DNA of 64,000 bases from Beijerinckiaceae bacterium (GTDB lineage Bacteria; Pseudomonadota; Alphaproteobacteria; Rhizobiales; Beijerinckiaceae): contig JALJOM010000003.1 in assembly GCA_024304885.1 (NCBI GenBank), forward strand, positions 2,700,110 to 2,764,109, written 5' to 3'. The notes below the pieces were generated by a model. That model saw only the letters and a program-made list of their open reading frames with translations, ran no database searches and was not told the DNA's origin. The translations under genes and the position numbers were made by a program. Below are positions 52,563 through 56,035 of the stretch, piece after piece. How positions within the stretch are numbered: the stretch's first letter is position 1; each line of letters begins with the position of its first letter.

Positions 52563-53042
52563 CGTACCACACGTCGAATTTTGTCGGTCATCGGACCTCG
52601 TCGGCTCCCGATACGCCGATCGTCACGATCCGGTCAGGCCGTGGCTCGATCGACGCATGATACTCGTTACCTCGGGAACGTCGAACGGTGCCTCCCCCCG
52701 ACACCAAGCATGAACGCGACCTGCTTTAGCACGTTCGGCCTAGAGCGGGACGAGGAAAAGTGTGCAGCGGCTTTCCGCCCGCATCCCGCTCTGAACTTTT
52801 GGAATCGATCACGTGTCATGACTTTGGATCGCATCGATCCAAAGTCATCGTGACCAAGAGCCAGACCCCGATTAAGTCGCGGTGTGAACCCTCTCCCTCG
52901 GCAGAGGGCGGACTCGCATCGCCGGCCACACGAGCCGGGGCGAGGGGTTGCGATCCGTGAAGGTTTCGGGGGCTGACCCCACATCCGGCAAGCCATAGCC
53001 CGTCGTTTACGACGGGCCTCCTCCCAGACACCCAACGGCCGG
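52563..53042. other. Non-coding, repeat-rich region
   Basis: 480 bp. It contains family B repeat copy 3 and, at about 52885-53035, a second repeat-like stretch with inverted segments (ACCCTCTCCCTCGGCAGAGGG, CCGTCGTTTACGACGG and ACCTTCTCGGACTGGGAGAAGG). No gene is seen. Confidence 0.45.
52740..52856. repeat. Interspersed palindromic repeat, family B, copy 3 (medium form)
   Basis: CTAGAGCGGGACGAGGAAAAG, GGCTTTCC, CCGCATCCCGCTCTGAAC, then ATCGATCACGTGTCATGAC and the GGATCGCATCGATCC hairpin with AAAGTCATCGTGA. It matches copy 1 except that the TTTACGCA hairpin is missing. Confidence 0.75.
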
Positions 53043-54695
53043 TCACCTTCTCGGACTGGGAGAAGGAAGCGCCGCACCCTGCTTCGTCCATTTGAGAACC
53101 GGGGTCCGGGCCGCACGTGTCTCGTCGAGGCGGCGGCGGGGCGCGAGCGAGGGCGCGTGCTGGAACCGCTCGGTGTCGCCGTCACGGACCGAATGGGCGA
53201 GATCGCGGATCGTCGCAATGAAGAGGTCGAGCGAGGCCTTCGATTCCGATTCGGTCGGCTCGATCAGCATGGCCCCGTGCGCGACGAGCGGAAAATAGAT
53301 CGTCATGGGGTGGAAGCCCTCGTCGATCATCGCCTTGGCGAAATCGAGCGTCGAAACCCCCGCGCCCTTGAGCCAATGATCGTCGAACAGCACCTCGTGC
53401 ATGCAGGCATGGTCGCCGAAGGGTTGCGACAGCAGATCGCGAAGGCTTGCACGAATATAGTTCGCCGAGAGAACGGCGTCCTCGGCGGCCTGGCGCAGGC
53501 CGTCCGCCCCGTGGGAGAGCATATAGGCGAGCGCACGCACGAACATGCCCATCTGGCCGTGGAACGCGGTGAGGCGGCCAAAGGCCTCTAGAGCGGGATG
53601 AGGAAAAGTGGACCCCGGTTTTCCGCTCACGACCTTTGACCGAGCCGGTCCAAGGTCGTCGTGATCTAGCGCCTCTTGCGCATGCTCGACGAGCTGCAGG
53701 CCGGCCTCGTCACGACGCAGGAAAGGGACCGGGGCGAAGCGCGCGAGCCGGCTCGACAAGACCACGGGCCCCGCGCCCGGACCGCCGCCGCCGTGGGGGG
53801 TCGAGAACGTCTTGTGGAGATTGATGTGCATCGCATCGACGCCGAGATCGCCCGGCCGGCACTTGCCCATGATCGCGTTGAGGTTCGCCCCGTCGCAATA
53901 GAAATAGCCGCCGGCCTCGTGCACGGCTTCGGCGATCAGGGCGATGTCCCGCTCGAAGAGGCCGCAGGTGTTCGGGTTGGTGAGCATGATCGCCGCGACG
54001 CTGTCGTCGAGACGTGCCTTCACCTCGGCGACATCGAGCGTCCCGTCGGCGCGGGCAGGAACCGAGCGGACCTCGAACCCGATGCGGGTCGCCGTCGCCG
54101 GATTGGTACCGTGGGCCGACTCCGGCACGAGGACGATCCTGCGGGTCGCCGCCTCGCCACGCGCCAGGAGCGCGGCCTTGATCGCCATCATGCCGCAGGC
54201 CTCGCCATGCGCGCCCGCCTTGGGCGACATCGCGACGGCCTCCATCCCCGTCAGCACCACGAGCCAGCGCGAGAGCTCGTGGATCAGCTCCAGCGCGCCG
54301 GCGACGGTCGATTGCGGCTGCAGCGGGTGGATATCGGCGAAGCCGGGCAAGCGCGCCATCGCCTCGTCGAGCCGCGGATTGTGCTTCATCGTGCAGGAGC
54401 CGAGCGGATAGATCCCGGCATCGATCGAGTAGTTCTTCTGTGACAGCCGCACATAATGGCGGACCGCCTCCGGCTCGCTGAGCCCGGGAAGGCCGATCGC
54501 GGACTCGCGCTCGCATGCGCCGAGCCGGTGCTCGAAAGGTGCGGGCTCCTCGAGATCGACCCCTGTCACCTCCGGCCGGCCGATCTCGAAGATCAACCCT
54601 TCCTCGATCGAGAGGCCCCGGTTCGAGGTGAAGGTGCGGCGACCCTCCGCCGTGAGCGCAACCGCCTGTGCCGGCCGGCCTTTTGTCATCAGCAT
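53043..54695 (-). CDS. gcvPB: Glycine dehydrogenase (decarboxylating) subunit 2, with in-frame repeat insertion
   Basis: A 550-residue PLP subunit of the glycine cleavage P-protein. PLP-binding Lys is K295 in [38 protein letters not shown] and [11 protein letters not shown] also match the family. Residues 343-368 are not family sequence: they are encoded by a family B repeat (53588-53669). Without these 26 codons the protein reads [19 protein letters not shown] and has 524 residues, the normal length. The frame is intact, so the product is probably made. ATG at 54695 has GGAGGAGG upstream and overlaps the gcvPA stop region. Confidence 0.93.
53588..53669. repeat. Interspersed palindromic repeat, family B, copy 4 (short form), inside gcvPB
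   Basis: CTAGAGCGGGATGAGGAAAAG, GTGGACCCCGGTTTTCCG, then GACCTTTGACC/GGTCCAAGGTC hairpin and GTCGTGATCTAG. CTAG occurs at both ends (53588-53591 and 53666-53669), so net insertion is 78 bp, a multiple of three. It is read as 26 codons of gcvPB on the minus strand. Confidence 0.88.
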
Positions 54696-56035
54696 CGAAC
54701 GACCTCCTCCAGCCTCTCGACGAAAGCCGCGCGATCGGCCTCGCTCACCGTTTCCGTCACCGCGACGAGGACGAGATCGTCGAGCCCCTGCCCCGGCAAG
54801 AGCCGCGAGACGGGGACGCCGCCGAGCACGCCTCTCGCCGCGAGGCGCTCGACCACATCCGCCGCGTCGCCCGGAACGCGGATCGTGAGCTCGTTGAAGA
54901 AGGTCTCGTTCAAGACCTCGACGCCGGGCACCGTCTCGAGGCGGTCGGCGAGGTCGATCGTATGTGCATGGTTGATCGAGGCGAGCCTGCGCAGCCCTTT
55001 CTCGCCGAGAAGGGTCATGTGGATGGCGAAGGCGAGCGCGCAAAGACCCGAGTTCGTGCAAATATTCGAGGTCGCCTTGTCGCGCTTGATATGCTGCTCG
55101 CGGGTCGAGAGCGTGAGGACGAAAGCACGCCGCCCCTCGGCATCGACGGTCTCCCCGCACAGGCGCCCGGGCATCTGGCGCAGGTACTGCTGCCGCGCCG
55201 CGAAGAGACCGACGTAAGGCCCCCCGAAGCCGAGGGGATTTCCGATCGACTGGCCTTCGCCGACGACGATGTCGGCGCCCATCTCGCCCGGCGGCTTCAC
55301 GAGCCCGAGCGACACGGCCTCGGTGAAGACCGCGATCAAGAGCGCGCCTTTCTCCCTGCAGCGAGCCGCGAGCGGGGCGATATCGCGCAAGTTGCCGAAG
55401 ACGTCGGGGCTCTGGACCACGACGCAGGAGGTCGCCTCGGTGACGCACGCGCAGAGGTCTTCCCGGGCGAGAACGTCGGGCGCCAGCGTGACGACCTCGT
55501 CGCCCGTCATGCGGGAGGTCGTGCGGACGACCTCGGCATAATGCGGGTGGAGCCCGCCCGACAGGACTGCCTCGCGCCGCCCGGTGATGCGATGGGCCAT
55601 GAGCACGGCCTCGGCCGTCGCGGTCGAGCCGTCGTACATCGAGGCATTGGCGACATCCATCGCGGTCAAGGCCGCGACCTGGGTCTGGAACTCGAAGATC
55701 GCCTGCAGGGTCCCTTGCGCGATCTCGGGCTGGTAGGGCGTGTAGCTCGTCAGGAACTCGGAGCGCTGGATCAAATGATCCACGCTCGCGGGGATGTGGT
55801 GCTTGTAGGCGCCGGCGCCGAGGAAGAATGGCACCGAGCCCGCCGTGACGTTTTGCGACGCGAGGCCCCGGAGCAGGCGCTCGACCTCGAGCTCGCCCTT
55901 GTGGCGCGGCAGGTCGAGAAGATCCCCGAGCCGCATGCCGGCGGGAATTTCGGCGAACAAGTCGTCGATGGAGCCGACCCCGATCCGAGCCAGCATGTCG
56001 GCGCGATCCTCGGAGGTGAGCGGAAGGTAGCGCAT
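54689..56035 (-). CDS. gcvPA: Glycine dehydrogenase (decarboxylating) subunit 1
   Basis: A 448-residue subunit that forms the active P-protein with GcvPB; it decarboxylates glycine and passes the aminomethyl group to GcvH. Family stretches are [57 protein letters not shown] and [10 protein letters not shown]. Its stop overlaps the gcvPB start. It is preceded by gcvH with a 25-bp gap. Confidence 0.95.

Follow-up and report, generated by a model that had tools for sequence, protein, structure and literature searches.

A CTAG-bounded palindromic repeat inserted in frame in gcvPB of a Beijerinckiaceae bacterium, and recurrent insertions of the same element family in other genes

The gcvPB locus and its repeat copy

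The window, the whole 64,000-nucleotide stretch of DNA that was analyzed, located at positions 2700110-2764109 of contig C3 in genome G000, carries gcvPB, which encodes glycine dehydrogenase subunit 2, on the minus strand at 53043..54695. Its reading frame runs uninterrupted from the ATG at 54695 to the stop codon at 53043-53045 and gives a protein of 550 aa. The start of gcvPB is overlapped by a probable gcvPA, encoding the partner subunit (54689..56035, minus strand), which was named from its position and from its sequence by eye. Within gcvPB, a palindromic repeat copy of 82 bp extends from CTAG to CTAG at 53588..53669 (minus strand). In the coding sense, the 5' joint is the CTAG at 53666-53669 (codon CTA, Leu343), and the 3' joint is the CTAG at 53588-53591 (codon CTA, Leu369). 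The net addition is 78 bp, read in frame as residues 343-368, and the protein without it comprises 524 aa. The bounding CTAG motifs, net length, and open frame had all been described in an earlier sequence-only reading, and they were reproduced here. One module of the copy contains an inverted repeat with a stem-loop at 53629..53659, the 14-nt arms of which (53629-53642 and 53646-53659) are 93% complementary. Downstream of gcvPB, the same repeat occurs again as a longer copy (52740..52853, minus strand). Predicted folding was stronger in five copies than in shuffled versions of them, with z from -3.10 for the whole gcvPB copy to -6.01 for the downstream copy. No Rfam family reached its gathering score in 52600-53800, and two matches far under that score were dismissed as chance. 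Separately, the C-terminal tail of GcvPB (window 53043-53110) passes into sequence resembling another repeat type.

The protein was scored with the NCBIfam model of GcvPB at 638.7 bits (cut-off 441), and residues 29-530 were aligned to profile positions 5-480, leaving a surplus of 26 residues. The invariant blocks of the family are unbroken, including the HKT motif, which we take to be the PLP lysine motif. In the family search, GcvPB was matched in 96 of 119 genomes. Within the genus, it was located in 14 of the 15 genomes, the present one included. The alignment with relatives that had been proposed as a check gave a clear answer, as the insert was missing in 13 of 13 other same-genus orthologues with a net gap of exactly 26 residues, and their loop reads like EHRSEAPGAFGR. 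The genus includes Methylocella tundrae, the locus L149 of a same-genus genome (G129) being identical over its whole length to part of the titled record L061. Moreover, among the matches listed, the insert was found in none of 29 other aligned GcvPB loci, three of which are same-genus.

The loop that holds the insert varies in length among family members. Between the conserved E337 and G373, the present protein has 35 residues, or 9 without the insert, compared with 7-16 in all 80 titled public orthologues, none of which has the insert, a set that overlaps with the 13 same-genus orthologues in that some come from the same organisms. In an AlphaFold2 model of the monomer based on 81 sequences (mean pLDDT 70.9, pTM 0.73), residues 345-369 had pLDDT < 50 and were placed between a short helix (339-343) and a longer one (382-418); the insert is thus predicted to be disordered. 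As GcvPB acts together with GcvPA, the monomer model serves as a guide only. In the solved relative 1wyt_B, 5 residues separate the two aligned stretches at this place. These results agree with the earlier proposal that the insert lies where family members vary.

In two genomes of another genus, g37 (L047 and L052), a different repeat of the CCTCTCCCGC type, with palindromic arms as judged by eye, is read in frame slightly upstream in the same GcvPB loop. It was rejected as the same event on account of its different sequence and position, and is taken as a separate indication that inserts can be accommodated in this loop.

The repeat family and the genes it entered

The two arms of the repeat were searched in the genome as IUPAC patterns with up to three mismatches. 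Arm 1 was matched 132 times and arm 2 194 times, some places being counted twice for arm 2 because it is nearly self-complementary, and neither arm was matched in the reversed control. Such numbers against zero indicate a repeat rather than chance, and the copy number exceeds 100 in the 3.8 Mb genome. Among the matches listed, 100 of arm 1 and 96 of arm 2, with overlapping reverse readings merged, were grouped into at least 139 clusters, around which BLAST found at least 151 element stretches, some representing one place in two overlapping loci. For 132 of the 151, both ends could be parsed. The commonest cores were 150 nt (44 copies) and 114 nt (35 copies), corresponding to net lengths of +151 and +115, both one above a multiple of three and hence frame-breaking. 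Cores compatible with the frame were 149 nt (13), 113 nt (11), 110 nt (6), and 146 nt (4). By eye, the longer form has a further palindromic stretch, and the two element ends form an imperfect 13-nt inverted match (10 of 13 positions, CTAG included). Of the 127 non-genic copies, 87 have CTA at their left end and 95 at their right end. Outside genes, a single likely empty site was seen, where the flanks of the L208 element are contiguous at one CTAG in L164. Other palindromic modules (AGAGCGGTTTCCGATTC... and AGAGCAATTTCCAGCGAA...) share a CTAG with element copies and form mosaics with them (L010, L017, L154, L160, and others).

In the case of gcvPB, the core is 77 nt and the only one of that length among the 132 parsed copies. 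The copy is not full length; both ends of the common element reading are kept, with 36 nt fewer than in the 114 form.

It had also been proposed to search for the repeat inside other open reading frames, and the result was larger than had been claimed, with at least six genes in this genome and more in its relatives. Scanning both strands in all frames for stop-free element frames identified moeA (L217), hdaA (L015), glyQ (L161), and a methylmalonyl-CoA mutase gene (L218), in which the element is in frame and which were named by family searches. The MoeA_N match takes up 202 residues on 160 profile positions. In the 13 same-genus MoeA loci, the insert was absent and the gap was 38 residues in most rows, four of these loci being approximately 35% identical and perhaps paralogues. 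The HdaA insert is flanked by family matches, as the best stretch of NF051883 ends at residue 168 (profile position 98) and that of NF006571 starts at 208 (profile position 102); a 38-residue gap was found, and none of 13 same-genus loci had the insert. In GlyQ, the insert is at the N-terminus, where the alignment is poor, and it was absent from all 12 same-genus loci. The mutase insert lies between the conserved N-terminal IPDF block and PWLTPEG, and was absent from 12 of 12 readable same-genus loci among 13. A sixth gene, for a ubiquinol-cytochrome c chaperone (L373), was found through a peptide search, and its insert falls where the Pfam match ends (profile position 92 of 140). Since L373 is outside the 139 clusters, six is a lower bound.

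Long frames with the peptide in L203, L212, L231, L016, and L236 matched no NCBIfam or Pfam family at the cut-offs used, and that in L237 no NCBIfam family; all were taken as antisense or chance frames. Disrupted genes were sought by coding score around all 151 stretches, and eight of the higher-scoring ones were translated on both sides. By eye, L009, L024, L155, L219, and L256 look like the ends of two different genes and were not counted, and L005 and L246 were not convincing. There is one out-of-frame case, a partial copy at L169:1157-1233 in a gene for a probable cyclic-nucleotide-domain membrane protein (family assigned by eye).

The L169 case suggests that a copy in a gene can be out of frame, and gcvPB might likewise be a dead or dying gene with a frame open by luck and an enzyme that is unmade or inactive. 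However, GcvPB has a single match in the genome, no stop occurs over 550 codons, and its invariant blocks are intact. Moreover, hdaA, glyQ, and moeA, the loss of which is costly, show the same in-frame outcome. A dead gcvPB is accordingly considered quite improbable.

The element was followed into the family with its 39-residue consensus peptide, which matched 51 of 397 family genomes (own included) in 9 of 43 genera, at E up to 1e-4 and with at most the best 19 candidates per genome scored. This genome (G000) and G124 were the two richest in element DNA matches. The peptide frames were read in 55 loci, and 20 proteins, the chaperone among them, were submitted to Pfam and 10 to NCBIfam. In three related genomes, in-frame cases were found in dnaE2, acr3, a nickel-transporter gene, and a helicase gene. 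In DnaE2 (L353, G124) and the ligase-associated DEXH helicase (L367, G146), profile matches lie on either side of, or across, the insert. In ACR3 (L355, G124) and NicO (L359, G009), there are two profile stretches, of which the displayed one precedes or reaches the insert. For an acetate kinase (L354), the profile picks up after the insert, and an N-terminal motif was recognized before it by eye. The insert is N-terminal to the domain in a MiaB-like protein (L360), PBP1C (L327), a DAHP-synthase family protein (L338), and LptE (L311), which may start downstream of it, and the other peptide-carrying loci of relatives are uncertain. The MiaB-like frame (L360, G009) has two successive element peptides at its N-terminus.

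High-copy repeats are classic points of misassembly and the assembly has 8 contigs, so that the repeat might have been placed in gcvPB by assembly error or contamination. Against this, the assembly is 99.94% complete with 0.13% contamination, the net length agrees to the single base, the copies vary among themselves, and similar cases occur in other genomes. An artifact of this kind is hardly credible, and the in-frame gcvPB insertion is regarded as real and well delimited, and as one of a series of such events caused by a single element family.

Reading frame and codons at the joints

The frame behavior of in-gene copies was compared with that of copies elsewhere. All 5 of the 5 in-gene copies had a net length divisible by three, compared with 34 of the 127 other copies (p 0.0019 in a one-sided Fisher test), and the corresponding comparison for copies both open and in frame (24 of 127 others) gave p 0.0004; both p-values are optimistic as in-gene copies were recognized largely by their running frame. 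When the out-of-frame L169 copy is counted, 5 of 6 in-gene copies are in frame. The five in-gene copies of the scan are all read in one same frame. Among the 132 parsed copies, 61 have no stop in this coding frame from one end of the element to the other, compared with 0 and 4 for the other forward frames and 12 for any reverse frame. The cases in relatives and the chaperone were found by the peptide of one frame and are uninformative on frame preference.

The frame rule could reflect survivorship, with blind insertion, purging of out-of-frame hits, and an element that does not favor coding use. That the two commonest net lengths, 115 and 151, are not multiples of three argues that frame preservation is not a built-in property of the element. 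Survivorship alone, however, leaves the bias toward one open frame unexplained, and this bias may have arisen by chance from a GC-rich palindromic sequence. On balance, we favor survivorship as the source of the frame rule with somewhat better than even confidence; it is compatible with, and nested in, the explanation that an invading repeat family was tolerated in genes.

The joints provided a further comparison. Of the ten joint codons in the five in-gene copies, three were CTA and seven CTG or CTC, all of them leucine codons; of the 254 non-genic ends, 182 had CTA, 33 another leucine codon, and 39 no leucine codon. The CTG/CTC pattern fits translation together with selection on leucine or on codon usage. 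These codons could also be relics of a non-CTAG target, and in glyQ, the CTG on the right may have belonged to the conserved LDP motif before the insertion, which makes a target other than CTAG possible.

The insert might have been retained for a protein function, such as a contact, a degron, or a regulatory loop, with the element as the source of a selected sequence; many genes were hit repeatedly, and joint codons changed only to other leucine codons. By contrast, the proteins hit are unrelated to each other, no insert of this genome is common to the aligned orthologues, and disorder is predicted. Moreover, with non-genic copies as the reference, the synonymous excess inside the insert was not significant (28 of 76 versus 163 of 547, p 0.13). 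A first reference consisting partly of in-gene copies had given 30 of 67 versus 186 of 586, and these counts are not taken as evidence of purifying selection inside the insert. Retention for function is thus judged unlikely.

Comparison with known elements and meaning of the insertions

The element resembles several known systems in part. Passages of PMC10969869 and PMC2229807 cite the work of Ogata and colleagues on RPE, in-frame palindromes in Rickettsia genes, and according to a passage of the latter, activity was compatible with the RPE in a protein for which this was tested, guanylate kinase. Like RPE, the present family consists of palindromic repeats of approximately 100-150 bp that lie in frame in many unrelated genes, six in its own genome and four in relatives, and encode an extra peptide. 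Unlike RPE, the host is a free-living, GC-rich member of Beijerinckiaceae, most copies have CTAG at both ends, and most are of frame-breaking length. The analogy is apt at the level of mode of action. The sequence-only reading had cited Rickettsia as the place where such palindromes are known; its comparison with RPE stands, and its scope was too narrow, as the available part of PMC3733652 describes REP-encoded residues in open reading frames of several other bacteria, from GTAG- and CGTC-tagged REPs and with DnaE2 among the genes.

In the same part of PMC3733652, REPs are described as units of 20-40 bp, often dimers, the GTAG ones being tied to RAYT transposases. Palindromes inside genes are common to both systems, and DnaE2, hit there by other repeats, is also hit in the relative G124. 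However, the unit here is 119 or 155 bp; no 20-40 bp GTAG-tagged unit was found, as the prevailing cores of 150 nt (44) and 114 nt (35) among 132 are far longer and the ends are mostly CTAG. The Y1 (RAYT-type) transposase PF01797 had no match in this genome and was matched in 3 of the 15 genomes of the genus. A RAYT-driven REP was rejected as the present driver, PF01797 being absent from G000 and G124, the element-richest genomes. In another Hyphomicrobiales genus, Brucella, passages of PMC2267715 and PMC2266754 describe Bru-RS1 and Bru-RS2 as palindromic repeats of 103-118 bp and preferred IS711 sites with the target YTAR. CTAG is a YTAR, and the likeness is one of description; Bru-RS is classed as intergenic in the available part of PMC2267715. 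Similarly, ERIC, NEMIS, and other bacterial MITEs can be fused in frame to open reading frames according to a passage of PMC2229807. The present element is like them in being non-autonomous, stem-loop forming, and read in frame inside genes, and a candidate counterpart of their terminal inverted repeats is the imperfect 13-nt end match. The observations that bear on a possible target site duplication are the frequent CTA ends of non-genic copies and the single CTAG of the likely empty site in L164. The text portions of PMC5082802 and PMC12306157 concern other repeats and contain no in-frame case. In the open-licence PMC literature, which mostly excludes subscription papers, no description was found of the CTAG-bounded family or of in-frame copies in Beijerinckiaceae, in line with the earlier statement that no account of these repeats as a source of protein sequence was known.

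We consider it very probable that a non-autonomous family of CTAG-bounded palindromes has spread and that its gcvPB copy was inserted in frame, later trimmed, and tolerated in a loop. The element would be a stem-loop-forming palindrome of about 119 or 155 bp, presumably moved by an enzyme acting at CTAG, which would have spread across this genus and its relatives with some copies falling into genes. In one orientation, about half of the copies have a stop-free frame, and the minority with a net length that is a multiple of three would add 26 to 38 residues rather than break the gene. In gcvPB, an in-frame copy of net 114 would have entered the variable-length loop and then lost 36 nt, or 12 codons, to give 78, an order of events that would need no frameshift step. 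GcvPB would tolerate the insert because the loop lies between conserved blocks, and we infer that the insert is translated in an active enzyme and is near-neutral.

A further-reaching idea, which we hold tentatively and lean against, is that the family is a continuing source of protein sequence in free-living Hyphomicrobiales, through its stop-free frame, persisting in-frame subtypes, tuning of CTA to CTG or CTC, and trimming, and that GcvPB, MoeA, HdaA, and GlyQ carry a domesticated loop of 26-38 residues.

Coding palindromes were first presented as a trait of Rickettsia, with its reduced genome and intracellular life, and REPs were later added in scattered species. Here, a high-copy element is found in housekeeping genes of a free-living genus. 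With non-genic copies as controls and sister genomes lacking each insert, this is a tractable system for asking whether such inserts are tolerated or incorporated. For annotation, it is a warning that a peptide common to unrelated proteins can stem from a repeat and need not be a domain. In this group of bacteria, ordinary proteins seem to be gaining extra segments from a family of mobile repeats.
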